The position numbers and the translations under genes were made by a program. DNA of 44,365 nt, taken from contig JALWCE010000020.1 of NCBI GenBank assembly GCA_027036935.1, positions 1 to 44,365 on the forward strand. The letters are read 5' to 3'. Of this stretch, positions 363-39,925 are shown one piece after another; the first letter of the stretch is position 1, and each line of letters opens with the position of its first letter. This stretch comes from Nitratiruptor sp. GTDB lineage: Bacteria; Campylobacterota; Campylobacteria; Campylobacterales; Nitratiruptoraceae. The notes beneath the pieces are model-generated. The model was given only the letters and a program-made list of their open reading frames with translations. It was not told the DNA's origin and searched no databases.

Positions 363-625
363 TTGTCTTCGTAGTAATTTTTATATCGTGGATCTTTGGC
401 CAATTCCTCAAACTCCCTTTTTTGCTTCTGATAGGCCTTGTAGACATTGAGGATGGCAGCCGCCACGCCGATGAAAACACCTATCCACAAGAGCCACCCT
501 TGGCCAAAAAGATTTTTGAGCCAGTAGCCAAGCCCAACCCCAATAAGAATGGCTACGACGATGGAGATACCAAGGGAGAGGGCTTCGGCCCCCTCGATGA
601 TTTTTCTATATTTTGGCTGGCTCAT
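359..625 (-). CDS. AtpZ/AtpI-like membrane protein
   Basis: An 88-residue protein with two transmembrane segments (about 14-34 and 43-60), separated by a short turn with [14 protein letters not shown] and ending in a charged tail with [10 protein letters not shown]. This is the shape of the small AtpZ/AtpI family (putative F0F1-ATPase subunit), proposed in other bacteria to help assemble the ATP synthase c-ring or to move magnesium or calcium. No ATP synthase genes are visible here, so that role is by family only. Its ATG overlaps the hemL stop by four bases, and its own stop overlaps the next gene in the same way, giving a coupled hemL-atpZ-membrane protein operon. Confidence 0.8.
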
Positions 626-1905
626 ATGATCTTCTTTAATCCCTCGTCTATATGCTCGAGAGTTTCGTCGATGAGTTTGTCCTCCAGTGGCGTACAGATG
701 AAGCCGGTCTCGAACTGACTGCAGGCAAAGTAGACGCCTCGCTTGATCATCTCTTGATGGAACTTGGCAAAAAGCTCTAGATCGCTTTTTTGCGCGTCAT
801 CGAAATTTTTGACGGGCCGGTCGTTGAAGAAAAAGCCAAACATACTCCCTCTTACCTCCGTTTGCAAGGGCACGCCTCTGGCATCGGCAATCTTTTGAAA
901 GCCGCCCACCAATCCTTTAGCCCGAAGCTCCAAAATTTTGTAGATGGAGGGATCTTTTTTAAGCCGACGCACTACGCTTAGCCCCGCCGCCATCGCCACG
1001 GGGTTGCCGCTCAGCGTCCCCGCTTGATAGACTGGACCTTCTGGACTTAAATGGGCCATGATATCGGCTCTTCCTCCAAAAGCACCTACTGGCATACCGC
1101 CGCCTATGACTTTGCCCAAAGTGGTAAGATCGGGACGTACGGAGGTGATCCCTTGGGCACCTTTGAGGCTGGCTCGAAAGCCGCTCATCACCTCATCAAA
1201 AATCAAAAGCGTCCCATGCTCGTCGCAAAGAGCTCGAAGCTGCTGCAAAAACTCCTCATCCGCGGGTACCAATCCCATATTCCCGGCGATCGGCTCGATG
1301 ATGACGCAAGCGATATCACTGCTCGCTTCAAAACAGCGCTTGAGACTCTCTATATCGTTGTAGCGAGCCAAAAGGGTATGCTTGGTAAAGTCCTCGGGTA
1401 CGCCCGGACTGCTAGGATGGCCAAAAGTAGCGGCACCGCTGCCAGCACTGACTAGCAGGCTGTCGCTGTGGCCGTGGTAGCACCCCTCGAACTTGACGAT
1501 ATCATCTCTACCAGTGAAGCCTCGAGCCAGCCTGATGGCGCTCATCACCGCTTCAGTCCCGCTGTTGACGAAGCGGATCTTGTCGATAGAGTCGAAAAGC
1601 TCCACGATCTCTTTGGCTAGCTCGGTCTCAAGCAGTGTGGGCGCGCCAAAGCTCAGCCCCTTTTTTGCCTGCTCGCACACAACCTCTAATGTTTGGGGGT
1701 CTGCATGGCCAAAGATGAGAGGTCCCCAGCTTTGCACATAATCGATATAACGATTGCCATCGATATCGTACAAAAAGGCTCCCTCACCACGCTCGATAAA
1801 AGGAGGCACACCCCCTACGCTTTTGAAAGCTCGCACGGGCGAGTCCACCCCTCCGGGAATATAATGCAAGGCCTCTTCATATGCCGCTTTGCTCTTTTCT
1901 AGCAT
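622..1905 (-). CDS. hemL: Glutamate-1-semialdehyde 2,1-aminomutase
   Basis: A 427-residue PLP enzyme of tetrapyrrole synthesis that converts glutamate-1-semialdehyde to 5-aminolevulinate in the C5 pathway. The whole family pattern is present: [12 protein letters not shown] near the N-terminus, [31 protein letters not shown], and the PLP lysine in [16 protein letters not shown] (about Lys265). An upstream TTG at 1911 is possible, but the ATG at 1905 has AAGGA six bases before it and is preferred. It is first in an operon with the AtpZ-like gene and is divergent from the TonB-like gene. Confidence 0.95.
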
Positions 1906-1954
1906 ACTCAATCCTTTTTTTGCAAAATTTTATCCAAAGCTAGCTAAAAAGAGC

Positions 1955-1960
1955 TATAAT
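1955..1960 (+). promoter_or_regulatory. -10 box of the TonB-like gene
   Basis: A perfect TATAAT lies only six bases before the ATG at 1967. No -35 box is obvious, which is usual in Campylobacterota. Transcription from this box would start at or next to the ATG, so the mRNA may be leaderless. No Shine-Dalgarno sequence precedes that ATG. Confidence 0.45.
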
Positions 1961-1966
1961 TTGGCT

Positions 1967-2737
1967 ATGAATAGGCTTGTGCTCTCTTTTTTTATCACTT
2001 TGGCTCTTTATATCTTGCTACTTTGGGCCCTTTGGTTCGATGCCCGTCACACTACGCTTCCGCCCCACCATGCCAAATACAACATCCAAGGCCTCAAGAT
2101 TTTAAAACCGACTCCCAAACCATCCCCCATCCTCACCCGTCACCCTAAAACCCATAGTACAAATCCCCATCCAAAACCTATCAAAAAGCAAAAGAAGCCT
2201 AAAAATAAACCAAAACCATCCCATAAACACAAGCATCCCAAAAAGATACTAAAGAAATTGGCCAAGACAAAACATAAAAAATACAAAAAGCGGATCCAAA
2301 AAGAGCACAATCAGACTATGCCCTCTTTGCAAGCTCTTTTTGCCAAAACTACTCCCCAAAAGGCCAAAACCGGCCTATCCAAACTTCCACCGCAGCTGCG
2401 AAAACTCTATAAAGATGACTTTTCCACTTTTACCAAAGAGCAAAAAAAGTTTTTGCAAAACAATCTAAGCAAGATCGCCGCGATTACCCAAAAGTATCTC
2501 TACTTGCGAGGCTACCCCTATATCGCTATCAAAACTCGTCAAGAGGGCACCAACGCCGTGGAGTTTTTACTCCATCCAAATGGGGATATCAGCCAATTGC
2601 GGCTACTCACATCCAGCGGATACGAAATGCTGGACAAAAACAGTATCGAAACGATTAAAACAGCATTTAAAGATTACCCTCGTCCCAAAAGCACCACCAA
2701 AATTAAAATTTATATCCGATACTCCATCATCTACTGA
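1967..2737 (+). CDS. TonB-like energy transducer
   Basis: A 256-residue protein with a short cytoplasmic end, one membrane anchor (about residues 4-26), a long Lys/Pro/His-rich periplasmic spacer, and a C-terminal TonB-fold domain. That domain shows FLLHPNGDISQLRLL, then SSGYEMLDKNSI, then FKDYPRP, which is the classic TonB C-terminal pattern. TonB passes proton-motive energy from ExbB/ExbD to outer-membrane receptors. No exbB or exbD is present here. The 3' end overlaps the end of the convergent c-di-GMP gene by 7 bases, and the operon opposite encodes a TonB-dependent receptor, a likely partner. A reading-frame start at 1889 exists but would add residues before the anchor inside hemL. TolA is a less likely alternative. 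Confidence 0.8.
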   Translation: MNRLVLSFFITLALYILLLWALWFDARHTTLPPHHAKYNIQGLKILKPTPKPSPILTRHPKTHSTNPHPKPIKKQKKPKNKPKPSHKHKHPKKILKKLAKTKHKKYKKRIQKEHNQTMPSLQALFAKTTPQKAKTGLSKLPPQLRKLYKDDFSTFTKEQKKFLQNNLSKIAAITQKYLYLRGYPYIAIKTRQEGTNAVEFLLHPNGDISQLRLLTSSGYEMLDKNSIETIKTAFKDYPRPKSTTKIKIYIRYSIIY

Positions 2738-4683
2738 TTACATTCGACCTCTACATGCTCTTGTGGTTGAGCAAAATAGTAGCCTTGAACATAATCGACT
2801 CCAAGCTCCTTAACCTTTTCGTAAATCTCAGCAGAACTCACAAACTCAGCCACAGTAGCTATCTTCTTCTTTTTGGCCAAATTAACGATGGTAGAGATAA
2901 TGAGCTCGGAATTCTCGTCTGTAGAGACATTCTTGACCAAAGAGCCGTCTATTTTGATATAGTCAATAGGGAGCTTTAAAATATGCTCAAAATTGGAATA
3001 TCCCGTACCAAAATCATCAATAGCTATTTGACAACCGATATTTTTCATCTCCGCAACAAAATCATGCACCAACGAGTAGTTCTCTATCCCCTCAGACTCC
3101 ACAATCTCTAAAATCAATTGATTGGCCACTTGATATTTATCAATACTCTCTTTGAGAGTTTGGACGATCTCCTTGTTCATAATATCGAGGATAGAGAGGT
3201 TGATAGAGAAGCTGCAGTTGCTATGTTGAAAATATTGGCAGCTCTTTACAATCATAATCTGGGTAAGTTTGGGATAGTAGCGAGACTTTTTTGCAATTTC
3301 TAAAAATTCATAAGGAGTGTGGATCTGTCCCTCATCCCCTTTGATGCGCATCAAACACTCATACCCTTTTGGCTTTTTGGTCTTGGCGTTGATGATCGCT
3401 TGAAAAAAAGGCACTACTCTTTCTAAATCGATCGATTTTTTCAGCCTTTTGATCCATTCGATATTTTTTTGATACTGACGCTCCACCGATTTATCGCTCT
3501 CTTGATATATCTCATAGCTCTTTTTATACTGCTTGGCCTTTTTTAAAGCAATATCAGCCTTTTCCAAAGCCCCCTCTTTCCCAATACAAGCACCCATCGT
3601 CACATGTAAGGAGAGCTCTTTGTCCCCGTGAAAAAAGGTCATATTTTCTATTTTATTGGCTAAAAGCCCCAAAAACTGCTCAATATCGCTTTTTGTCATC
3701 TTCCTATTAAAGAGCATCGCAAACTCGTCTCCGGAAAATCTGTAAAATTTAGGATAATTGGTACTGATGAGATTTGTGATATTTTGAGCAAAACTAGCTA
3801 GTATCTTGTCGCCCGTCTTATGTCCAAAGAGGTCGTTGAGCTCTTTAAAATCATCAATATTGATGATAATAAGAGTAGCATCTTGCAAAGACTCTAAATC
3901 CTCTTGGAGACGAAATCTGTTTGGTAATCCCGTCAAAGAGTCCATATAGAGCCGCTTTTTGAGCTCTTGGGTCTTTTGCTGTACTTTTTCTTCTAAAATT
4001 TTATTCATATTTTCCTGTTTTAGGGCATAGCTTTTAATCTTTTGCTGCATCTTTTCTAATGTCCGAGATATCCTCCCTATCTCGTCCTCTCTATCGGAAA
4101 ACTCAAAAGAGAAGGTCTTTTTAGGGGTATAGTTGCTCAGTTGCAACACTATTTGTTTCAAAGGCGAGAGGAGCTGCTCCAAATAGATACTAAAAAGGAT
4201 CAATAGTACGGCGATCCCAAACAAAAATATCCATAAAAGTTTGCTATACTTGTTGACTAACCTCTTAAAATGGGCATAGGAGTAGATCACGTGCATCCGC
4301 CCGATACTCTCATTGGAATTGGGACGCTTGATGGTTCGTGTCATAATAAAATACTCGCTCTTGCCGATATCTTTTTTAAGGTAACTGCTTACCACCTTTC
4401 CATCGTTAACTATGGTGATACCAAGAATATTTTCATTATTTTTAGTTACTTCTTTGATCACTTTATTTACATTAGAGGTCATACCCAAATAGAGATTCAT
4501 AGCAATGGTGGGGAGGATTGTGTTAACTATAACTTCAGCTTTTTCTTTTTCCATCTGTTTAAAAGCCTCTTTTCCCGCCTCCTCGAAAGTATAAAAAACT
4601 CCGACAATAAGAGTCGTCCCCACGATAAAAAAGTAAAAGAGTATGCGAGAGCTTAACGATCTTTTCAAATTTAGCATATTCAC
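2731..4683 (-). CDS. Membrane sensor with HAMP, GGDEF and EAL domains
   Basis: A 650-residue inner-membrane c-di-GMP enzyme. The order is: transmembrane helix (about 14-32), periplasmic sensor (33-148), second helix (149-170), HAMP and coiled coil (172-243), GGDEF domain (245-395) and EAL domain (405-640). The GGDEF signature is SGDEF (317-321), with no RxxD inhibitory site before it. The EAL signature is ECL (442-444), but the remaining phosphodiesterase residues are kept: INL (494-496), LEIVESE, DDFGTG (556-561), the lysine of IKIDG, AEF and QGYYF. Net activity may therefore be c-di-GMP breakdown, but synthesis is not excluded. The GTG start at 4683 overlaps the upstream stop (GTGA); an ATG at 4677 is the alternative. 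The sensor layout resembles YfiN/DgcN, fitting the YfiR-like neighbour. Confidence 0.9.
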   Translation of the reverse strand: MNMLNLKRSLSSRILFYFFIVGTTLIVGVFYTFEEAGKEAFKQMEKEKAEVIVNTILPTIAMNLYLGMTSNVNKVIKEVTKNNENILGITIVNDGKVVSSYLKKDIGKSEYFIMTRTIKRPNSNESIGRMHVIYSYAHFKRLVNKYSKLLWIFLFGIAVLLILFSIYLEQLLSPLKQIVLQLSNYTPKKTFSFEFSDREDEIGRISRTLEKMQQKIKSYALKQENMNKILEEKVQQKTQELKKRLYMDSLTGLPNRFRLQEDLESLQDATLIIINIDDFKELNDLFGHKTGDKILASFAQNITNLISTNYPKFYRFSGDEFAMLFNRKMTKSDIEQFLGLLANKIENMTFFHGDKELSLHVTMGACIGKEGALEKADIALKKAKQYKKSYEIYQESDKSVERQYQKNIEWIKRLKKSIDLERVVPFFQAIINAKTKKPKGYECLMRIKGDEGQIHTPYEFLEIAKKSRYYPKLTQIMIVKSCQYFQHSNCSFSINLSILDIMNKEIVQTLKESIDKYQVANQLILEIVESEGIENYSLVHDFVAEMKNIGCQIAIDDFGTGYSNFEHILKLPIDYIKIDGSLVKNVSTDENSELIISTIVNLAKKKKIATVAEFVSSAEIYEKVKELGVDYVQGYYFAQPQEHVEVECNQ

Positions 4684-5225
4684 GGCTCTATAAATCGAGA
4701 TATTTGATAGAGTTGGGGCAAAAATTCAAAATCGCCACGTAACAAGACCTTTTTGTTGATATAGATCGCCACCTCCTTCTCAATTGCCACATTGCATAAA
4801 AATCCAAATAAAAGATCTTTTTTTTCATAGGTAAAGGAGTAGATATCTCTTTTATTTGCGATTTTTTTGGCTACTTTTTTCAAGATATCCCCCTTGGCTT
4901 TAAGTACATAAATAGCATCAGCTTCGCTTCTTTTATCGGCTAAAAAAGTGGAAAAATTTACGATCTTTGAGCAAAAACGATACCCTCCCATCCCCCTACC
5001 ATAGAGTCTATCAAGCTGTTTTTTAAGATATTTGGCATACAAACGATCAATCGCCGTAACCAAAATATAAAAATCGATGCGCTTGTCTTTTATATGGGAA
5101 GAGAGCTTTTTATCCATAAGCATCAATTTGGGATAAAGAGAAGATTGGGTACGCAAAAGAAGCTTATTGTACTCGTATGCCCTAGCAAGATAGGCTACCA
5201 AGATAAAAAGTACAATTTTTCTCAT
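4680..5225 (-). CDS. YfiR-like periplasmic protein (DUF4154-type)
   Basis: A 181-residue exported protein with an N-terminal signal sequence (MRKIVLFILVAYLARA). The C-terminal segment VAIYINKKVLLRGDFEFLPQ, followed by a short Leu/Ile-rich end, matches the closing pattern of the YfiR/HmsC family, in which an IN motif precedes a final helix. YfiR proteins bind and repress the periplasmic face of YfiN-type diguanylate cyclases. The gene sits between a TonB-dependent receptor and a membrane GGDEF/EAL protein, exactly where YfiR homologues are often found. The ATG at 5225 shares one base with the receptor stop (TGATG) and has GGGAG five bases upstream; an ATG at 5237 would spoil the signal peptide. 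The family assignment is by pattern and context. Confidence 0.65.
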   Translation of the reverse strand: MRKIVLFILVAYLARAYEYNKLLLRTQSSLYPKLMLMDKKLSSHIKDKRIDFYILVTAIDRLYAKYLKKQLDRLYGRGMGGYRFCSKIVNFSTFLADKRSEADAIYVLKAKGDILKKVAKKIANKRDIYSFTYEKKDLLFGFLCNVAIEKEVAIYINKKVLLRGDFEFLPQLYQISRFIEP

Positions 5226-7267
5226 CACAACTCCCAAACCAAAGAGAAGATAAAGCTCCTCCCTCTCATCGCCACATAATCTTCTATATAGGTATAAGGA
5301 GGGGAGGGATATTTGATCCTCACATCAAAAATATTTTTAGCGCCCAAACCAAAACGAAGAGTATTGCTTGGGGCATACAGAAGTCCAAAATCGCATTGGC
5401 TATAGCTTTTTAAGGGCTCCCTCGCATCAAAATCGAAACGGCGCTTTTTCCCCACATAACGGGCCAAAAAACTTACGCTCAAATTTGGAGTGAGTTGACG
5501 AAGTAGATACCCCTTAAGCATATGTCGAGCTATATTAGCCAGATGATCACCATGAGCGTTCTTACCCTCTACGAAAGAGTAGTTGGCATAGAGTTTAGTA
5601 TATGCGTCTAGCATCTTAGAGAGCTCGAGCTCAAAACCATAAAGCTTTTGCTCTTGCTTGTTAAAATATTTATGCTTAAGATTGATATTGTCTATAAGAT
5701 CTTTGTTGCGCAAGAAAAATAGGGAGGCTTGTAAAAATTCATCTGTACTCAAACGATGGATAAAGCTTGCTTCCAAAGCGTGCACCCGCTCGGGACGAAG
5801 ATTTGGATTGCCCACTTTTGTGATATTATTCATCGTAAAAAGTTCCTGCCATGAGGGATCCCTTTGGGATTTGGCATAAGAGGCTTTGGCAATGTTCTCA
5901 GCATCTATTTGATAAATCAAAGAGAGTCTGGGATTAAAAATATAGTCGCTTTGGGAATTTCTTTCTATATTGAAACCATAGTATAAGGAGAGATTTGGAC
6001 TATATTCAAAAGTATCGCTAAAAAAATAGATCAAAAAGAGGCGTTTGGCTTTTGGATTAAGAAAAGGAAAGCTTTGCGAGTAGTTTACTAGCGTATCGCT
6101 GCTCCCGCTTTTATCGGTGGTAATGGTAGTGACGCTATAGGTCTTTTCCTTAGAGATTCTTGAGCCTAATGTTAACGTATGCCTTTGCCATCCTTTATAG
6201 CGTATGTGCAGTTTAGCGTATACGCTTCGCTGTCTTGCTTGGAAAAAACCATAGAGCCCCTTTGGGTACAGCGCCAATTGACTTGGATCAAAAGGATTGG
6301 GCACCACAAGACCTGCTGGAGCGTAGTGGGTATCCATCGTCAAAGCGTCGTAGTGTATACCGCTTTGGAGGGCAAAACTCCATCCATTTATCAAATCTTT
6401 TTGATAACTCGCCTCCAAATAGCGATTTGGCATCAAAGAGTAGTCTTTTTTGGGCGGTAGCAAGAAACTCACGCCAAATCCCATGCCGTGCTTGTACTGA
6501 TTGTCTCTGGCTTGCAGTTTAAAGCCATCTAGACTCAAAGTCATGGCTAGCGAATAGTTCTTGAGCCATAAAGGTGCCGTGCCAGATTTGGCTAGATGCT
6601 TGTTGACCTTTCCCAAATAGCCGGTGTAGAGCATATCTGGTCCGGAGTAGACACTCTTGTCATCTTGCTGATAATAAAATTCCGTATAAACTCTTAATTT
6701 GCCAAAATGGTGGTTGGTATAAAATCCTCCTCCCCGGTAGAGCTGCGAATCCCTTTTTAAAAAGAGCTTGCCACAGGCAAACTCGCCAAAGTTTTCGGCA
6801 TATGTGATCACGTAAATCGATCCGGCATAAGCGTTTATCCCCTCGCTTTTGCTACCAGGTCCTCGTACCACTTCGATACGTTTGATTAGCTCTATGGGCA
6901 TACGCATATACTGGGTATAGTGGTCTCCAAACACATTGTTGACCAGTACACCGTCGATAAAGAGCTTGGTTTGGCCAAAAGCGATGGGATTAGAACCCCT
7001 AAAAACCGGATAGGCAATCCCCATATTGTCCGCATAGATATCAAGTCCCGGCACGAGCCATAAAGCCTCTTGAAGCGTCTGGACACCTAGCTTCTCTAGC
7101 TCATACCCTTTATAGACAGAAAGAATATGGGGCTGGAAAAATTCATTCTCTTTGGAAAGGTCGGCTATGTGCGAAAAGGTTTGAAGGTCTTGTTTAAAAC
7201 TCTCACCCCAAGAAGCAGCAAAAAGCGGTATGCTCATTGCAGTAGTGATTGCAATCCTTTTAACCAT
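5225..7267 (-). CDS. TonB-dependent outer-membrane receptor
   Basis: A 680-residue receptor. It has a signal peptide (MVKRIAITTAMSIPLFAAS), a plug domain with the hallmarks VQTLQEALWLVPGLDI, FIDGVLVNNV and IKRIEVVRGPGS, then a beta-barrel of aromatic-rich alternating strands. NPNLRPERVHALEASF and YSFVEGKNAHG are typical barrel motifs. Such receptors bring in siderophores, haem, vitamin B12 or other ligands using TonB energy; the ligand cannot be read from the sequence. The start at 7267 lies inside the end of the acyltransferase gene (34-base overlap) and has a GAGAG ribosome site; an internal ATG at 7237 would destroy the signal peptide. The YfiR-like and GGDEF/EAL genes follow, so ligand binding may be linked to c-di-GMP. 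Confidence 0.9.
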   Translation of the reverse strand: MVKRIAITTAMSIPLFAASWGESFKQDLQTFSHIADLSKENEFFQPHILSVYKGYELEKLGVQTLQEALWLVPGLDIYADNMGIAYPVFRGSNPIAFGQTKLFIDGVLVNNVFGDHYTQYMRMPIELIKRIEVVRGPGSKSEGINAYAGSIYVITYAENFGEFACGKLFLKRDSQLYRGGGFYTNHHFGKLRVYTEFYYQQDDKSVYSGPDMLYTGYLGKVNKHLAKSGTAPLWLKNYSLAMTLSLDGFKLQARDNQYKHGMGFGVSFLLPPKKDYSLMPNRYLEASYQKDLINGWSFALQSGIHYDALTMDTHYAPAGLVVPNPFDPSQLALYPKGLYGFFQARQRSVYAKLHIRYKGWQRHTLTLGSRISKEKTYSVTTITTDKSGSSDTLVNYSQSFPFLNPKAKRLFLIYFFSDTFEYSPNLSLYYGFNIERNSQSDYIFNPRLSLIYQIDAENIAKASYAKSQRDPSWQELFTMNNITKVGNPNLRPERVHALEASFIHRLSTDEFLQASLFFLRNKDLIDNINLKHKYFNKQEQKLYGFELELSKMLDAYTKLYANYSFVEGKNAHGDHLANIARHMLKGYLLRQLTPNLSVSFLARYVGKKRRFDFDAREPLKSYSQCDFGLLYAPSNTLRFGLGAKNIFDVRIKYPSPPYTYIEDYVAMRGRSFIFSLVWEL

Positions 7268-7866
7268 CGCACTCTCTTTTTATATTTTTCCAAAAGCGTA
7301 GGATTATCCCGCTCCAATCTTGCAATACTAAGCAAACAAGGGTATCTAGGCGAGCCGTAGCCCTCTTGTAAAGGACCAATAATATCGTAGCGTACGCCCA
7401 ACATCTTGACCAAACGGATAAAAGGCTTCTCCATAGCCGAATAGCAGTACTCTATCCCCAAATCTTTAACTACCGGATAGATTTTTTCTATGACAAAATG
7501 AGAAAGAATATACCTACTATCGTGCATATTGCGGTGCTTCTTGGCAATAAAAACCCGAGAAATTTCACTCAGTTTATCCCTTTTATACGTATCAAGAAGC
7601 TTCTTAAGATCTGGATAGATTTGTAAATGTTTTGGCGTAGGGTACCCTAAAGGGGAGTGATGGATCAGTCTCGTGGTAGCTACGATGGTACAATCTTCAT
7701 CCAAAGCGACAAAATGGGTGGCATACTGATCGTACTCATCTATCTCTTTTTTATCGGGATATCGCTTCTTGTCAAAAAATCCAAGCTCCTCGCAGAGGAT
7801 CTCATAACGAAACCGGTATATTCGCTCGAGCATATTCTCATCTACCACCTCAAAAAAATAGAACAT
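7234..7866 (-). CDS. LuxI-fold (GNAT) acyltransferase, autoinducer-synthase-like
   Basis: A 210-residue cytoplasmic protein with the residue pattern of acyl-homoserine-lactone synthases and the related PEP-CTERM/exosortase-associated acyltransferases. An Arg-rich RIYRFRYEILCEELGF (15-30) is followed by DEYDQYATHFVA (43-54) with the D-x-x-D pair, an Arg in TTRLI (66), and the E-x-x-R pair in SEISRVFI (Glu101, Arg104). These positions match the catalytic set of LuxI. The product is unknown; N-acyl amino acids, acyl-homoserine lactones or a lipid modification are all possible. The gene is one base after the CitE-like gene and overlaps the TonB receptor gene, so it is part of that operon. No LuxR-type regulator is seen. 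Confidence 0.75.
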   Translation of the reverse strand: MFYFFEVVDENMLERIYRFRYEILCEELGFFDKKRYPDKKEIDEYDQYATHFVALDEDCTIVATTRLIHHSPLGYPTPKHLQIYPDLKKLLDTYKRDKLSEISRVFIAKKHRNMHDSRYILSHFVIEKIYPVVKDLGIEYCYSAMEKPFIRLVKMLGVRYDIIGPLQEGYGSPRYPCLLSIARLERDNPTLLEKYKKRVRWLKGLQSLLQ

Positions 7867-7867
7867 C

Positions 7868-8791
7868 TTATTTCTTCAAGATATTCAAAGCGTCTTTATA
7901 GATAGGCTCATCGATAAATCCATATTTTTCATCCACAAATCCGCTTACCCCTTGCTTTTGCATCTTTTCAAACCGCTCTTTTATATACAAAGCCTTTTGT
8001 CTATTCCACGAAAAGATTCGATTGACTATCCGTACTTGATCTGGGGTAATGCAGGCTTTAGCCCCGTATCCCATCGCCTTTTCATATCGACACCACTCCT
8101 CAAACTCCTCTAGGTCTTGATACTTTTGGTATACAAAAGAGATAGGATGAAGTTTTACGCTCTTAGAGCTTATCAAAAATTTGGCCAAAATGTGATCGAT
8201 GGTAGGATTTTGCAAACGTAACGTACTTTGGGGGATATCAAGATCGGCCAACAGATCCAGTATACCTAAATAGAGTGTCGTCACTCGCTCATCTATCTTA
8301 AAATCTTTAAAATTTCTCCACGCCTCCTTAGTCTCTACCGAAATATGCAGATCAATAGGCTCCTTGAGCACTCCAAGAGCTTCTTGCACATCGGCTCTAG
8401 TATCAACTTTTGGGATTCTAATGGCATCTGGCATATAAGGATTTAAAAACTCTATCTCCTCCTTGCCCCCCTCATCCAAAGGATTGATCCGCACCACCAA
8501 CATAGGGACATCGGGAGGAGCGTGCTGAATAAAAAGAGCGGCTGCAAGGAGCGCCACTTTTTTATATTTTGGCGCCACCCCGTCCTCAAGATTGATAATC
8601 GCCGCATCACACTCTAGCTCATCGAGTTTGTTTAGATGCTTGGCCTTATGGGCAGAGACCATCAAAGCCGAACGGATCGCCACTTTTTTAAGAACTCTTG
8701 GCTTTGGTAAGAGTCGAGCAAGAAAATACTCCTCATCCAAATTCTCTATCGCCTCTTGAATTTCTCCCATCTTTTGTAGATCAAAGATCAT
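7868..8791 (-). CDS. HpcH/HpaI aldolase family, CitE-like lyase
   Basis: A 307-residue TIM-barrel protein of the citrate-lyase-beta (CitE) family, whose members cleave or form C-C bonds of CoA thioesters or act as malyl/citramalyl-CoA thioesterases. The family motifs are present: INLEDGVAPKYKK (66-78), VRINP (Arg101), IRIPKVDT (Lys128), the metal ligand Glu153 in ISVETKEAW, and GILDLLADLDI with Asp179. The C-terminal GYGAKACITPDQVRIV is the family's closing pattern. No CitD, CitF or CitC is present, so it is not part of a citrate lyase complex; a stand-alone lyase or thioesterase is likelier. The ATG overlaps the cytochrome stop (ATGA), and the acyltransferase follows after one base, which hints at a shared acyl-CoA substrate. 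Confidence 0.85.
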   Translation of the reverse strand: MIFDLQKMGEIQEAIENLDEEYFLARLLPKPRVLKKVAIRSALMVSAHKAKHLNKLDELECDAAIINLEDGVAPKYKKVALLAAALFIQHAPPDVPMLVVRINPLDEGGKEEIEFLNPYMPDAIRIPKVDTRADVQEALGVLKEPIDLHISVETKEAWRNFKDFKIDERVTTLYLGILDLLADLDIPQSTLRLQNPTIDHILAKFLISSKSVKLHPISFVYQKYQDLEEFEEWCRYEKAMGYGAKACITPDQVRIVNRIFSWNRQKALYIKERFEKMQKQGVSGFVDEKYGFIDEPIYKDALNILKK

Positions 8792-9135
8792 CGTTTCAAA
8801 CTTTTATGCTTGGAGCTTTTGAGATAGAAGTACAATGTTTTTATCTCTTGGAGGGTTAAAAAGTAGTGGGGCATCAAGCGGTGCTTGCCATTTGTGAGAG
8901 CTTCATAAAATTTTTTAAAAGAGAGGTTTGTGATGTTTGGCGCTTTGATGATAATGGTGCGGTTGCTCTCTTTGTATCTGCCAAGTACCTCTCCTTGCCC
9001 ATACTCGCCGTGACACTTATGACATCCTATCCCTCTAGGATTGTGATAGAGCATCTTCGCATACTCCTCCTTGGTAATAAAAGAGTCTTCCCCATAGCCC
9101 AAAACGACAAAAAAGATTAAACTGATCAGACGCAT
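8788..9135 (-). CDS. Small periplasmic c-type cytochrome
   Basis: A 115-residue monohaem cytochrome. It has a short signal sequence (residues 1-14), the haem-binding CHKCH (38-42) and a probable axial Met88 in HRLMPHYFLT, the usual class I arrangement. It begins the six-gene minus-strand operon and has AAGGGAG before its ATG. Its role among a lyase, an acyltransferase and a receptor is unclear: it may pass electrons to an oxidase, or it may simply be co-transcribed. It is divergent from folD. Confidence 0.85.
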   Translation of the reverse strand: MRLISLIFFVVLGYGEDSFITKEEYAKMLYHNPRGIGCHKCHGEYGQGEVLGRYKESNRTIIIKAPNITNLSFKKFYEALTNGKHRLMPHYFLTLQEIKTLYFYLKSSKHKSLKR

Positions 9136-9214
9136 TCGCTCCCTTAAACCAAATCACAATATAGTTTTGATATCATATCGAAAATTTTATGAAAATCCCC
9201 AAAAAGAGGCGTTT
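9136..9214. promoter_or_regulatory. Divergent promoter region, cytochrome operon and folD
   Basis: This 79-base gap must hold the promoters of both transcription units. On the minus strand TATATT (9163-9158) lies about 22 bases before the cytochrome ATG, which is preceded by AAGGGAG. On the plus strand TATCAT (9171-9176) lies about 38 bases before the folD ATG at 9215, which has AGAGG six bases upstream. Neither has a clear -35 box. Confidence 0.4.
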
Positions 9215-10066
9215 ATGCAGATTCTTGACGGAAAAAAACTCTCCCAAAAGATCAAATCACAAATCAAATCCCAAACCAAAGAGCTTAAAGAAAAGCACAA
9301 TATCGTCCCGGGTCTCGCGGTGGTACTCGTAGGCGACGATCCGGCGAGCCTCACCTATGTGAAGATGAAAGAAAAAGCTTGTAAAGAGGTAGGCTTTTAC
9401 TCCATCGTTCACCATATGCCCCAATCTATCTCCCAACAAGAGATCGAAGAGACGATCAAGATGATGAACCAAAACCCCAACATCGACGGCATCTTGGTCC
9501 AGCTCCCCCTGCCTTCTCATATCGATACCACCAAGATCTTAGAGCTTATCGATCCAACTAAAGATGTGGACGGCTTTCACCCGTACAACTTCGGACGATT
9601 GATGCAAGGACTCGATACTTTTGCCCCTTGTACGCCTCTAGGAGTGATGGAGCTGCTCAAAGAGTACGGGATCGATCCAAAGGGGATGGATGTGTGCGTC
9701 GTGGGTGCCAGCAATATCGTAGGCAAACCGATGGCCGCCCTCTTACTCAACGCCAACGCCACTGTAGATATTTGCCATATTTACACAAAAGACCTACAAT
9801 CTCATACAAAAAAGGCGGATATGGTGGTCGTAGGCGTGGGCAAACCAAACCTCATCACCGCAGACATGGTCAAAGATGGAGTGATTCTCATCGATATAGG
9901 CATCAACAGGCTCCCAGACGGCAAGCTTGTGGGTGACGCCGATTTTGAAGCTATCAGCCAAAAAGCCTCCTACATCACGCCAGTCCCCGGAGGTGTAGGG
10001 CCTATGACCATAGCGATGCTGCTGGCCAACACTATCAAAGCCGCCCGACAAAGGATAGGTAGTTGA
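9215..10066 (+). CDS. folD: Bifunctional methylenetetrahydrofolate dehydrogenase/cyclohydrolase
   Basis: A 283-residue enzyme that interconverts 5,10-methylene-, methenyl- and 10-formyl-tetrahydrofolate with NADP. It carries the YVKMK motif with catalytic Tyr48 and Lys52, ILVQLPLPSHID, the KDVDGFHPYNFGRL signature, the dinucleotide site VVGASNIVGKPMAALLL and the closing TPVPGGVGPMT. The start is the ATG at 9215, with AGAGG upstream; an in-frame start at 9167 would add residues not found in the family. It begins the folD-lepB-M50 cluster, and its stop overlaps the TTG start of lepB. Confidence 0.95.
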   Translation: MQILDGKKLSQKIKSQIKSQTKELKEKHNIVPGLAVVLVGDDPASLTYVKMKEKACKEVGFYSIVHHMPQSISQQEIEETIKMMNQNPNIDGILVQLPLPSHIDTTKILELIDPTKDVDGFHPYNFGRLMQGLDTFAPCTPLGVMELLKEYGIDPKGMDVCVVGASNIVGKPMAALLLNANATVDICHIYTKDLQSHTKKADMVVVGVGKPNLITADMVKDGVILIDIGINRLPDGKLVGDADFEAISQKASYITPVPGGVGPMTIAMLLANTIKAARQRIGS

Positions 10067-10842
10067 AAGAAAAACTCAAAAAATTTTATCACTGGTCCAA
10101 CACCTGGACCGGTACCATCGTCATTGTCCTTCTTGTCATATTCTTTATCGCTCAGGCTTTCGTCATCCCTAGTGGAAGCATGAAAAATACGCTCCTCATC
10201 GGCGACCACCTCTTTGTCAAAAAGTTCGCCTACGGCATCCCCACACCTCATATCCCGTGGCTTGAGATTCCTGTACTGCCAGATTTTGACGGGGACGGGC
10301 ATCTTATCTCAGGGCCTAGACCAAAACGGGGCGATATCGTCATCTTTCGCTATCCAGTCAATCCAAAGATCCACTATGTCAAACGTTGCGTAGCTGTAGG
10401 CGGGGATATGCTCTTTGTGCACAACAAACATCTCTATCTCCACCCCCACGAAGGAGGGCAATATATCAAAACCCACTATCCAGCAGATCGTATCGTCAAG
10501 ATCGCAGGATTTTTGTGGGTAGTAGATCCGTATATGCTCAAGCACCCGGGTATCCATCACGATCCAAATATCGTCGACGACGGCAGATATCCCAAAGAGA
10601 TATTTGACTTTCCCCCCGTACAAATTCCAAAAGATCAGTTTTTTATGATGGGCGACAACCGAGACCACTCCAACGACAGCCGCTTTTGGGGTCCGGTACC
10701 CTACAAGCTGGTAGTAGGGACCCCTTGGTTTATCTATTGGAGCTGGGATAAAAACTACGTGCCTAGATGGGAAAGAGTGGGCAAGACAGTAGAGCAGATA
10801 GAAGAGGAGATGCGAAAACGTGAGCACTTTGGAAATTCTTAA
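10063..10842 (+). CDS. lepB: Signal peptidase I
   Basis: A 259-residue membrane protease that removes signal peptides. One N-terminal anchor (about 17-34) is followed by box B, IPSGSMKNTLLIGD, with the nucleophile Ser39, then RGDIVIFRYP and YVKRCVAVGGD, with general base Lys107, and box E, GDNRDHSNDSRFWGPVP. The start is a TTG at 10063 that overlaps the folD stop (TTGA) and has AGGATAGG upstream. The 3' end overlaps the M50 protease gene by 23 bases. The order folD-lepB is common in Campylobacterota. Confidence 0.95.
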   Translation: MKEKLKKFYHWSNTWTGTIVIVLLVIFFIAQAFVIPSGSMKNTLLIGDHLFVKKFAYGIPTPHIPWLEIPVLPDFDGDGHLISGPRPKRGDIVIFRYPVNPKIHYVKRCVAVGGDMLFVHNKHLYLHPHEGGQYIKTHYPADRIVKIAGFLWVVDPYMLKHPGIHHDPNIVDDGRYPKEIFDFPPVQIPKDQFFMMGDNRDHSNDSRFWGPVPYKLVVGTPWFIYWSWDKNYVPRWERVGKTVEQIEEEMRKREHFGNS

Positions 10843-36182: not shown

Positions 36183-37250
36183 TCACTTTCTTAAAACTGC
36201 TATCTCCTCCATCAAGTCAACTTTGCGACTCAAAATATCTTCTAGCAAGAAACGCTTGAGCACTTTTTGGCTCTCATACTCTGTAAACACAATCTCTTTT
36301 TTACGAGGATCTTTTTTGATCTCATAGATCTTTTCGCCTTTTTCTACCCCAATACCTGCCTCGCCACTTCCAAACGGAGCTATCCAATAATAGATTAACC
36401 CATATCTTTTGTCTACCTCGGCCTCAAGCCGCCATTTTATCTCTCTTTTTTCCCTTGGCTTAAGCTTGAAAAAAGCACGAAAGATATACCATGTGTACAG
36501 CTCTTTGGCGTTTCTCCACTTCCATCTATCTGGTTTCGTATCGCCGGCGTTGAGAAAAATTCTCTCCTCATCCTCAAAAACAATTTGAAAATGTCTAGTA
36601 TCCTCTAGTACGCTCCAGTGCTCTTTTGGATTGATAAAAAAACTTTTCCAATCATGCACATCAAACACATAGGTATCAATCAACTCAAAAAGATCCTCAA
36701 AAGTATCAATTTGATCCAAAAGAGTTTTAAAACTCTCTTTACCAAATACTTTTCTCCAATTCTCCTCTTTTACCCTAAGCCTCGTATCAAAAGTACAAAA
36801 AGTTTTTTTTCTCCAGTCGTGACTTGGCAAGTAGTCCTCAATAGTGAGCAACGCCCTTTGGATATGTGTCTGGGCTTTCTTATCTTTTTGTACCGTACCC
36901 TTAAAGAGGATAAAAAATTTCTCTTTATATTTCTTAAAAGCTTCTAAATCCTCTTTCGCATAATCGATCAAAAAACCGACCTGTCCCTCCAGATACCAAT
37001 GCTCCTCCGCCTCAATGAGCACTTTTTCCCATCGCTCATTTTTATTGATAAGAGCGACTTTGCGCCGCTCTTCTTCTTTTTGCTTCGTGTTTACCCCTCC
37101 AAGGGAGGAAAAATCGATCTCTTTGTAAACATCAAAAGTAATTGTATCCGCTAAAGCACGAAGTCCTCTAAGGGCTTTTACAAATGCATCTCCCTCTTCG
37201 ACTCTTGTGTTGCGTATCAAATTTTTGGCGATCCTTTGCCATCGACGCAT
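36183..37250 (-). CDS. C-terminal part of the interrupted DUF262 protein
   Basis: A 355-residue ORF with Lys/Glu-rich helices and strands and no motif that I recognise as a nuclease. It continues the same frame as the DUF262 fragment upstream after the TAG. The start ATG at 37250 has no ribosome site (GATATCCAG precedes it), so separate translation is unlikely. The N-terminal MRRWQRIAKNLIRNT resembles the segment that follows the helical domain in DUF262 proteins. Confidence 0.6.
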   Translation of the reverse strand: MRRWQRIAKNLIRNTRVEEGDAFVKALRGLRALADTITFDVYKEIDFSSLGGVNTKQKEEERRKVALINKNERWEKVLIEAEEHWYLEGQVGFLIDYAKEDLEAFKKYKEKFFILFKGTVQKDKKAQTHIQRALLTIEDYLPSHDWRKKTFCTFDTRLRVKEENWRKVFGKESFKTLLDQIDTFEDLFELIDTYVFDVHDWKSFFINPKEHWSVLEDTRHFQIVFEDEERIFLNAGDTKPDRWKWRNAKELYTWYIFRAFFKLKPREKREIKWRLEAEVDKRYGLIYYWIAPFGSGEAGIGVEKGEKIYEIKKDPRKKEIVFTEYESQKVLKRFLLEDILSRKVDLMEEIAVLRK

Positions 37251-37325
37251 CTGGATATCGTCAAAATCTTTTAAAACTCCTAAGCTCCAAATATGAAAAT
37301 CGAGTCTTTGGGCGTAGTCTATATC

Positions 37326-38249
37326 CTATGTGCAATAAGCTTTTAAATTTTTATATTTGCTCAAATTATCCAAAAGCTTGACTATACTCTTTACATTGTT
37401 TGGATCTTTATAAACCTCCTCGTAAAAATCAAAAAGCTCTTTTTGCTTGATGAAATTTTTATCAAGTTCGTAATTTTGGGCGTAAAAATGTAGAGTCGTA
37501 TGGAAGAAAAAGAGGTAAAACAGCTTCTCAGCCTCTTCAAATCCCAATTTCCAAAAGATATCAAGCCATTCGTTATCAAGTTTGGATTTAGTCGCCAAAT
37601 CATCTATATATTTTTCAAACTCCGCTTTAAAATTTTCAAAATTTGAAAGCTGCTTACCCCTTGCATTCATTTTAATATATAGATCCTCATCGAGTCCATA
37701 CTCGGCCAAATCTAAAAACTCAAATCCTATTTTTTCTAGATCCTCGGGCTTATAACTCGCAAATCTCTCCTCTATCATCTGTAACATCTTCAAAGCCGAC
37801 TGAACGCTCAAATCCCTCTCCCAAGACAAAAAGTACCAGCTGCTGTTTTTGATCTGTCGTACAATATCTTTTCTTGTAAGCTTTTGCCAATGCTCCTCTT
37901 TACACAGCGCTTTAAAAAACTCCTCGCTTGATGGACGGACGGCATAAGTTAAATGCCGCAACTGAGACATATATTTCTCCTCTAGCGAAAGATAGAAGTA
38001 GAGTAAAAAAAGAGTAGTCAGCCGCTGTTGTCCATCAATAGGTATAAATCTACCCGCCCCATTTTCCTCACTTTTTTTGCTTCCAAAAATAAAATCAAGA
38101 TGGAGCCCTTTCCCGTCGATCCCAGCTTTAATAGCCTCTAAAAATCTTTTGGCTTTTTTCTCATCCAGCCCTTGCACATAATCCCTTTGAATAACGGGTA
38201 TTTCGATACTATTCTCTGTAATAATATCGCTAAATTTTTTTAAACTCAT
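37326..38249 (-). CDS. N-terminal part of a DUF262 (ParB-like) protein
   Basis: A 307-residue fragment with the DUF262 core: IPVIQRDYVQGLDEKKAKRF (17-36), then IPIDGQQRLTTLFLLYFYLS with the nucleotide-binding DGQQR, and YIKMNARGKQLSNFENFKAE. These motifs define the ParB/Srx-like NTPase half of GmrS-type defence proteins. It ends early at the TAG, where homologues go on for several hundred residues. It is coupled to the DUF262/DUF1524 gene upstream. Confidence 0.75.
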   Translation of the reverse strand: MSLKKFSDIITENSIEIPVIQRDYVQGLDEKKAKRFLEAIKAGIDGKGLHLDFIFGSKKSEENGAGRFIPIDGQQRLTTLFLLYFYLSLEEKYMSQLRHLTYAVRPSSEEFFKALCKEEHWQKLTRKDIVRQIKNSSWYFLSWERDLSVQSALKMLQMIEERFASYKPEDLEKIGFEFLDLAEYGLDEDLYIKMNARGKQLSNFENFKAEFEKYIDDLATKSKLDNEWLDIFWKLGFEEAEKLFYLFFFHTTLHFYAQNYELDKNFIKQKELFDFYEEVYKDPNNVKSIVKLLDNLSKYKNLKAYCT

Positions 38250-39925
38250 CGCTTCTCCTTTATAAATGGGCCCAGTTTCTCTTGTAAAACTCTTTTATAC
38301 GCTTCCCTATCCTTTCTATTCCATCTCAAAAAATCTCCTGCCTCATCGCTATAGTATTTCATAAAAACGTTTTTGGTACCCAAAGGGATAAATCGCCCCT
38401 CTTTATCCCGCTTTTTGATTCTTGCTCTTTTTTCGGGAAAGACAGCACTGTTTAAAGAGGAGTTGTCCGCTTTAGAAAGTAGTGCCAAATTATCGATCGT
38501 ATCAATCTCCTCATCCTCATCGGTAAACTTTTGATAGATCTTTTGCTCAATGGTATTAAAAGCATCGGGATCTATTGAATCTTGCGACAACAGCTCTTGA
38601 ATGCTCTTTTTTAAGGAGTCATCGATATATCGCGAGCGCAACTGCTCTTGCAACAGCTCTTTTTTATATTTCTCTGGCATCTCTTCGCTATTTTTGGCGT
38701 GGATGTGTTCTAGTGACCACTGCTCTTTGATATGTAGATCAAAAGGATACCTTGCATACCCGCTATCAAGCGTAATCAATACGTTAAACAAAAATAAAGC
38801 TTTGTGTATCTCTTTTGAGTGGGCATTGTACTCTAAATCTTCTAAAGGTTTCGTGAGTACAATCCTCATCATCTTTTCAAGCTCTTTTTTAAATTGATCC
38901 TTATTCTCTTTCTCAAAGGTTTCAACTATTGTAAGAAGAGAAGCGGATTTAGAGTTGATCAAATAACCCACATAATGATAATAGCAATTCTCGTTATAAA
39001 GCTCTTCAAAAATCCTAAAATACTTTTTGACTTCGTCCCACAACTCCTCCTTTTTGATCAATCCCTCTTTCAATAGCTTCTCAAAAAGATAAAAACTAAA
39101 CCGCTCATCTTTCTCTTTTACATGGATGTTATATTGCTTCTTATACTTTTTGGCTACTAAATCGAAAATAAAATCTATGCGTGTATTCTTATATTTTTTT
39201 GTCGTTAAAAAAGCAAAAAATCTATCATCTTGTACATTTTTCTCTATATAATCCCATTCCGAGACAATCTTGAATTGCTCGTTTTGTGGTATTCCTTGCA
39301 ATATGAGAGCTTTTATTAGCTCAGAATTGCTCAACGGAATTTTACCGATGTTCAGCCGTGTAAAGACCTTGATCTCATCTTCGTTTGGAGGGAGCTCATA
39401 CCAGATAAAGCGCACATTATTGGCCCTGTCTTTTCCATCTTTCTCTTCAAATTTTAGCAAAGCGTTTAAAAAATCGGCTTTGTTAATTTTGTTGTTTTCA
39501 AACCACTCTTTAATCGTTTGGTACGCTTTGCTCATGTAATAAAAGTCTGGATTTTGCCTATTTACTCCTTTGGAGAGATTATTTTGTAAGAAATTTTGGG
39601 AATCTTTCCTTGTCTCATACTCCAATTCAAAAAGTCTATCATCGCTAAAGATTATTCTTCTTGCCTCTTCTAAATATTTTAAAATTATATAGAGCGTGGT
39701 CAACCTTTGCTGTCCATCAATAACTCTATAGCGATTTAATCCATCTGGTTGTACAACGATTGGCTGTAGACAATAAAAGCCTTTTTCTTTTTTCTGCGAA
39801 AAATCATAAATATCGTTTAAGAGATCTTCCACTTGCCTCCTATCCCATCTATATCCTCTTTGATAAAAGGGTATAAAAAAATCAAAATCCAAAATCTGCC
39901 ACACCGCCTTGAGCTCTAATCCCAT
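38246..39925 (-). CDS. DUF262/DUF1524 protein, GmrSD-like nuclease
   Basis: A 559-residue protein. The N-terminal DUF262 domain has IPFYQRGYRW (18-27), VIDGQQRLTTLYIILKYL (68-85) and FTRLNIGKIPLSNSELIKAL. The C-terminal DUF1524 HNH-type domain has SLEHIHAKN (His407) and then NLALLSKADNSSLNSAVFPE followed by KR. GmrSD and relatives (BrxU, SspE) couple nucleotide hydrolysis to cleavage of modified or foreign DNA. The region is A+T-rich compared with its neighbours, suggesting acquisition. It has its own promoter and AAAGGA seven bases before the ATG. Confidence 0.85.
   Translation of the reverse strand: MGLELKAVWQILDFDFFIPFYQRGYRWDRRQVEDLLNDIYDFSQKKEKGFYCLQPIVVQPDGLNRYRVIDGQQRLTTLYIILKYLEEARRIIFSDDRLFELEYETRKDSQNFLQNNLSKGVNRQNPDFYYMSKAYQTIKEWFENNKINKADFLNALLKFEEKDGKDRANNVRFIWYELPPNEDEIKVFTRLNIGKIPLSNSELIKALILQGIPQNEQFKIVSEWDYIEKNVQDDRFFAFLTTKKYKNTRIDFIFDLVAKKYKKQYNIHVKEKDERFSFYLFEKLLKEGLIKKEELWDEVKKYFRIFEELYNENCYYHYVGYLINSKSASLLTIVETFEKENKDQFKKELEKMMRIVLTKPLEDLEYNAHSKEIHKALFLFNVLITLDSGYARYPFDLHIKEQWSLEHIHAKNSEEMPEKYKKELLQEQLRSRYIDDSLKKSIQELLSQDSIDPDAFNTIEQKIYQKFTDEDEEIDTIDNLALLSKADNSSLNSAVFPEKRARIKKRDKEGRFIPLGTKNVFMKYYSDEAGDFLRWNRKDREAYKRVLQEKLGPFIKEKR

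Follow-up and report, generated by a model that had tools for sequence, protein, structure and literature searches.

On the minus strand of a 44,365-nucleotide stretch of Nitratiruptor sp. DNA (the window, meaning the whole stretch that was analysed), an enzyme resembling autoinducer synthases is encoded next to a TonB-dependent receptor, a YfiR-like protein and a HAMP-GGDEF-EAL protein. This locus raises the question of which of the neighbouring genes form a unit, and whether the enzyme might make the molecule that the receptor captures. ORF translations and family scans agreed with the initial annotation on the six ORFs, their strand and tight junctions, and on a TonB-like gene facing the operon end. 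Pfam and NCBIfam scans gave names to five of the six proteins, the exception being the YfiR-like one. The features are listed below.

622..1911, minus strand: presumed hemL, encoding glutamate-1-semialdehyde aminotransferase; flanks the insertion site (translation and synteny)
1889..2737, plus strand: TonB (TonB_C 5.2e-16), convergent with the cassette
2731..4683, minus strand: membrane HAMP-SGDEF-EAL protein, 650 aa, cassette gene 4 (EAL 7e-62, GGDEF 1e-24, HAMP weak)
4680..5225, minus strand: periplasmic protein with predicted YfiR fold, 181 aa, cassette gene 3 (no Pfam sequence match)
5225..7267, minus strand: TonB-dependent receptor, 680 aa, cassette gene 2 (barrel 4.3e-32, plug 3.3e-14)
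7234..7866, minus strand: predicted LuxI-fold GNAT acyltransferase, 210 aa, cassette gene 1 (Acetyltransf_5 9.5e-13, Autoind_synth 2.1e-6)
7868..8791, minus strand: CitE/CLYBL-like lyase (HpcH_HpaI 5.6e-19)
8788..9135, minus strand: small c-type cytochrome, cytC (CxxCH present; Pfam Cytochrom_C 19.5 bits, cut-off 21.3)
9167..10066, plus strand: presumed folD, other flank of the insertion site (translation and synteny)
10063-10842: lepB, after folD

The junctions measure -4 (cytC/citE), +1 (citE/acyltransferase), -34 (acyltransferase/receptor) and -4 (YfiR-like/GGDEF-EAL). The ATG of the YfiR-like gene lies on the receptor stop codon; its ORF opens at 5237, and the 181 aa are counted from this ATG. 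Further along, an A-T-rich island (36183-39925, 35-38% GC) carries on the minus strand two adjacent GmrSD_N (DUF262) proteins and an uncharacterised 355-aa protein, and has the look of a locus for type IV restriction or another kind of defence.

Extent of the unit and its insertion site

We surveyed 299 genomes of the same order, taking a profile match at E <= 1e-20 as a strong acyltransferase homologue. Such homologues occurred in 44 genomes, and in 38 of these, across five families (f1, f4, f7, f10 and f17), the next gene downstream of the enzyme encodes the same type of receptor. A YfiR-like gene follows where the contig allows, as does a HAMP-GGDEF-EAL gene in almost all cases; in G170 and G287 the GGDEF-EAL gene is divergent and flanks the acyltransferase gene from the opposite side. 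The initial annotation had grouped the synthase-like enzyme with the receptor, the YfiR-like protein and the GGDEF-EAL protein. These four do form a conserved unit, and a check for homologues scattered without these partners left the association standing. The order recurs in many genomes, so the arrangement is more than chance, and the gene association within the cassette is well supported. In G226 (family f9) the enzyme and receptor are on different contigs, with receptor, YfiR-like and GGDEF-EAL genes all present, and in G281 the contig ends at the acyltransferase locus, leaving its neighbours unreadable. A second, separate branch of the enzyme has no receptor or YfiR partners. It is found in four genomes that belong to a single f4 genus (G003, G067, G080 and G117) and as a second copy in G173, and its loci include L032, L035 and L123; the gene adjoining the enzyme in L035 and L123 we take to be DapD-like. 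A phylum-wide sample yielded no match beyond the order, and a plasmid search returned one weak match for the acyltransferase, in Rhizobium, and none for the YfiR-like protein.

Only four genes are common to all cassettes. The CitE-like lyase and the cytochrome, which the initial annotation had counted as module members, fall outside: a CitE-like profile matches 198 of the 299 genomes, the acyltransferase being missing from most of these 198, and the cytC-citE pair adjoins folD-lepB where no cassette is present, being divergent to it in 13 of the 15 loci read. The facing tonB likewise belongs to an old hemL-tonB locus. In five genomes (G182, G003, G040, G181 and G192) the far side of cytC-citE is taken up by hemL-tonB, and no cassette separates them. 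Together, hemL, tonB, citE-cytC and folD-lepB are an older conserved locus, present without the cassette in many genomes of the order. Two genomes of the window's own genus, G036 and G064, have no cassette, and about 6.8 kb separate their citE and tonB genes. In G036 this interval (L144, 9326-15982) holds a Complex I/hydrogenase-4-like operon, and the gap in G064 (L145) is of the same size. The citE-tonB interval thus seems to be a repeated insertion site. Since the locus occurs without the cassette or with another insert, the cassette of family f1 is an insertion that parted citE from tonB; in families f4, f7, f10 and f17 it resides elsewhere and not near citE. As a neighbour outside the cassette, the facing tonB could still supply the receptor with energy.

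It is true that cytC-citE lies just upstream in 16 of 16 f1 cassette genomes, often within a few bases, as would suit a six-gene module in which lyase and cytochrome contribute to signal metabolism. Such a module is nevertheless very improbable: citE-cytC is widespread without the cassette, and the cassettes of the four other families are located elsewhere. The CitE survey and the insertion-site comparison led us to reject it. The actual unit is the four genes from 7866 to 2731 on the minus strand, encoding the acyltransferase, the receptor, the YfiR-fold protein and the HAMP-(S)GDEF-EAL protein.

The acyltransferase and its closest families

An AlphaFold2 model of the acyltransferase (pLDDT 93.8) gave BjaI, TofI, LasI, RpaI and FeeM as top Foldseek matches, which supports a LuxI/FeeM fold for the modelled protein. 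Its score against the LuxI-type family PF00765 (27.8 bits) exceeds the Pfam cut-off of 24; Acetyltransf_5 and TIGR03694 outscore PF00765 on the same protein. The conserved residues of LuxI are R25, E44, D46, D49, R70, E101 and R104 in V. fischeri numbering (PMC5539150). All seven of this R/E/D/D/R/E/R core are kept in the acyltransferase, where R20, E41, D43, D46, R66, E101 and R104 are invariant among 15 sequences aligned to LasI. The LuxI aromatics F29 and W35, by contrast, have no conserved counterparts, position 24 being L, V, A or M and position 30 F, Y, I or V.

The exosortase-associated acyltransferase family TIGR03694 matches all 15 relatives (best 6e-31), and the window member scores best against it, at 96.4 bits, under the curated cut-off of 111.95. 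The FeeM-type N-acyl amino acid synthase family PF21926 matches nine of the 15 at E <= 0.01 (best 2e-8), the window member falling below the cut-off (21.8 bits against 27). By sequence comparison, the exosortase-associated acyltransferases, kin of the N-acyl amino acid synthases, are the closest family. With TIGR03694 closest and the LuxI aromatics missing, an N-acyl amino acid would be a likelier product than an acyl-homoserine lactone (AHL). The enzyme probably makes a small acylated molecule, and the window gene and its G138 counterpart are under purifying selection (dN/dS 0.07). The earlier label of autoinducer synthase is therefore too specific.

A PEP-CTERM/exosortase system was considered and rejected, since exosortase PF09721 found no match in the window's genome and the system showed no link to the cassette. 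Small exosortase/archaeosortase-like proteins of about 170 aa were noticed in congeners (G138, contig C69, L142; G193, contig C28, L143; G018; G051; G231). A LuxR partner was likewise rejected: the autoinducer-binding domain PF03472 had no match in 31 genomes, including that of the window. In the literature searched we found no described AHL circuit for this bacterial group, and the open-access papers searched contained no report of this gene combination.

The putative sensing proteins and their inheritance

The receptor has a plug and a barrel, with Cir and BtuB as the nearest solved relatives; its best NCBIfam matches are haem/siderophore receptor subfamilies, and a Pfam scan found no signalling N-terminal domain. 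The YfiR-like protein gave no Pfam or NCBIfam match by sequence. PF13689 (DUF4154; YfiR/HmsC-like) matched one of 12 members (E 0.007) and not the window protein. We turned to fold comparison because the YfiR-like alignment, when searched against solved structures, returned nothing. For an AlphaFold2 model built from the 12 relatives (pLDDT 87.8), 15 of the 16 best Foldseek PDB matches were crystal structures of YfiR (4yn9, 4yn7, 4zhu and others; E 5e-5 to 5e-4, TM up to 0.71). The model supports a YfiR fold and upholds a call that had been made from sequence alone.

The HAMP-SGDEF-EAL protein has two transmembrane segments (14-32 and 149-168). The stretch of about 115 residues between them is presumably periplasmic; no convincing Pfam domain was found in it. 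By analogy with YfiR on YfiN, it could be a docking place for the YfiR-like protein. The GGDEF signature reads SGDEF in nearly all members and GGDEF in one. In the EAL domain, E442, N495, E529, D556, D557, K577, E613 and Q633 are invariant among 10 sequences, and we take these to be the catalytic set (E, N, E, DD, K, E, Q).

A maximum-likelihood tree of 63 receptors placed all LuxI-linked receptors in one clade of 42 with 100/100 support; none of the 21 outside it, nearly all from YfiR loci, adjoins the enzyme. The six unlinked members within the clade include the receptors of G226 (enzyme elsewhere), G126 (enzyme decayed) and G181 (second copy). Distance trees of the four cassette proteins correlate pairwise, in part through shared descent (Mantel r 0.75 to 0.89, with none of 999 permutations as high; r=0.79 for enzyme and receptor). 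Losses within the window's genus affect enzyme and receptor jointly. G115 keeps only the YfiR-like and GGDEF-EAL genes, G127 and G240 keep only GGDEF-EAL, and G182 has lost all four; no cognate receptor was found elsewhere in these genomes, whose completeness is 98 to 99% for G115 and G127, 85% for G182 and 71% for G240. In G239 and G126 a remnant of the enzyme gene lies beside an intact receptor gene.

Within the order, triplets of receptor, YfiR-like protein and cyclase that lack the enzyme are common. The cassette therefore resembles such a triplet that gained a ligand-making enzyme, perhaps on a single occasion, with the enzyme staying linked to that receptor clade ever since. A separate triplet branch with a cyclase of about 765-800 aa and no acyltransferase was also seen (L128 and L129 in G036 and G064, L166 in G077, L175 in G129 and L178 in G089).

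A candidate self-sensing cassette and its alternatives

Gene content, conservation, co-inheritance, co-loss, predicted folds and catalytic residues together led us to read the locus as a transferable cassette of four genes by which a cell would sense an acylated molecule of its own making and feed c-di-GMP, a reading to which we give a probability of about 0.5. In what we infer of the product's identity, its export, its role as the receptor's ligand and the sign of the output, the cytoplasmic LuxI-fold enzyme would acylate a small amine, with an amino acid as the likeliest acceptor and ACP or CoA as acyl donor, and the product would leave the cell; no exporter gene is linked to the cassette. 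The dedicated TonB-dependent receptor would capture the product and carry it into the periplasm, where the YfiR-fold protein may bind either the product or the loaded receptor and change its grip on the periplasmic part of the HAMP-SGDEF-EAL protein. The latter would then alter c-di-GMP, probably as a phosphodiesterase. AHLs and other small acyl signals normally pass through the outer membrane without help, and a TonB receptor is therefore unexpected for them. The enzyme-less triplets indicate that the sensing part in general needs no self-made ligand, and the standalone related enzymes of G003, G080, G117 and G067 count against self-sensing.

Several other relations between enzyme and receptor would account for parts of this pattern. 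The relatedness of the receptor to Cir, BtuB and haem/siderophore receptors, together with a TonB dependence that suits a large or metal-bound ligand, would fit a metallophore-like or amphiphilic scavenging compound that the enzyme makes or acylates and whose loaded form the receptor re-imports, with successful uptake reported to c-di-GMP by the YfiR-like and GGDEF-EAL proteins. A lone acyltransferase rarely makes a metallophore, however, and no further biosynthetic gene is constant in the cassette, so we regard this as unlikely. We think it similarly improbable that the ligand is external and that the acyltransferase modifies or detoxifies it, or a derivative, after uptake with no self-signalling. 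The strict tie of the enzyme to one receptor clade, their joint loss, and the persistence of the receptor without the enzyme in G126 and G239 would all agree with this, but LuxI/FeeM-type enzymes are known for synthesising acylated products and not for modifying compounds that have been imported (PMC11631085). Less likely again is an enzyme that makes a membrane aminolipid or envelope modification and is merely co-regulated with a nutrient receptor and c-di-GMP sensor. Weak matches to ornithine-lipid acyltransferases and the solitary relatives point that way; against it, no partner O-acyltransferase is a constant neighbour and the association is confined to one receptor clade.

Among known systems, the proposed self-sensing cassette invites comparison with YfiBNR of Pseudomonas aeruginosa and E. 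coli (YfiN being also TpbB or DgcN), where YfiR-YfiN control is known and GGDEF-EAL outputs occur in divergent Yfi systems (PMC3375315). Both have a periplasmic YfiR-fold protein, predicted here, and a membrane HAMP-GGDEF protein, with input supplied by an outer-membrane partner. That partner is the lipoprotein YfiB in YfiBNR, whereas a TonB receptor stands beside the YfiR-like gene in all cassettes; the cassette also differs in its intact EAL domain, its attached synthase gene and a YfiR-like protein that DUF4154 misses in 11 of 12 members. The receptor-YfiR-GGDEF(-EAL) triplets of the same order share the receptor/periplasmic/membrane layout but have receptors of other clades and no LuxI-fold gene. 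With LuxI-LuxR the cassette shares the synthase fold, the seven-residue core and a synthase gene beside a presumed receiver, and genomes keeping only the receiver part resemble LuxR solos. Unlike LuxI-LuxR, it has no LuxR domain, the LuxI-typical Phe and Trp are missing, and its receiver would be in the outer membrane and periplasm with a c-di-GMP output. Of the enzyme's relatives, FeeM-type synthases figure among the structural matches, and the PEP-CTERM/exosortase acyltransferases are closest in sequence, but the window member stays below their cut-off and its genome has no exosortase.

There is a fair chance that the cassette represents a new class of acyl-signal sensing. The fuller proposal, which we advance more tentatively than the reading of the locus itself, is of a new kind of system for cell-cell sensing or self-sensing whose genes are inherited and transferred together. 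In it, an acylated signal from a LuxI-superfamily synthase would be read from outside through a TonB receptor and a YfiR switch to c-di-GMP with no LuxR-type regulator. The genomes offer natural tests, in the joint loss of enzyme and receptor, the receptor with a broken enzyme, and the genes set apart in one genome. Ligands of TonB receptors are usually hard to guess, and even without a signalling role the pairing of a single receptor clade with a single enzyme leaves fewer candidates to consider. If the product is the ligand of the receptor, acyl-signal sensing would reach c-di-GMP by way of a receptor in the outer membrane, where LuxI-LuxR systems use a LuxR transcription factor.
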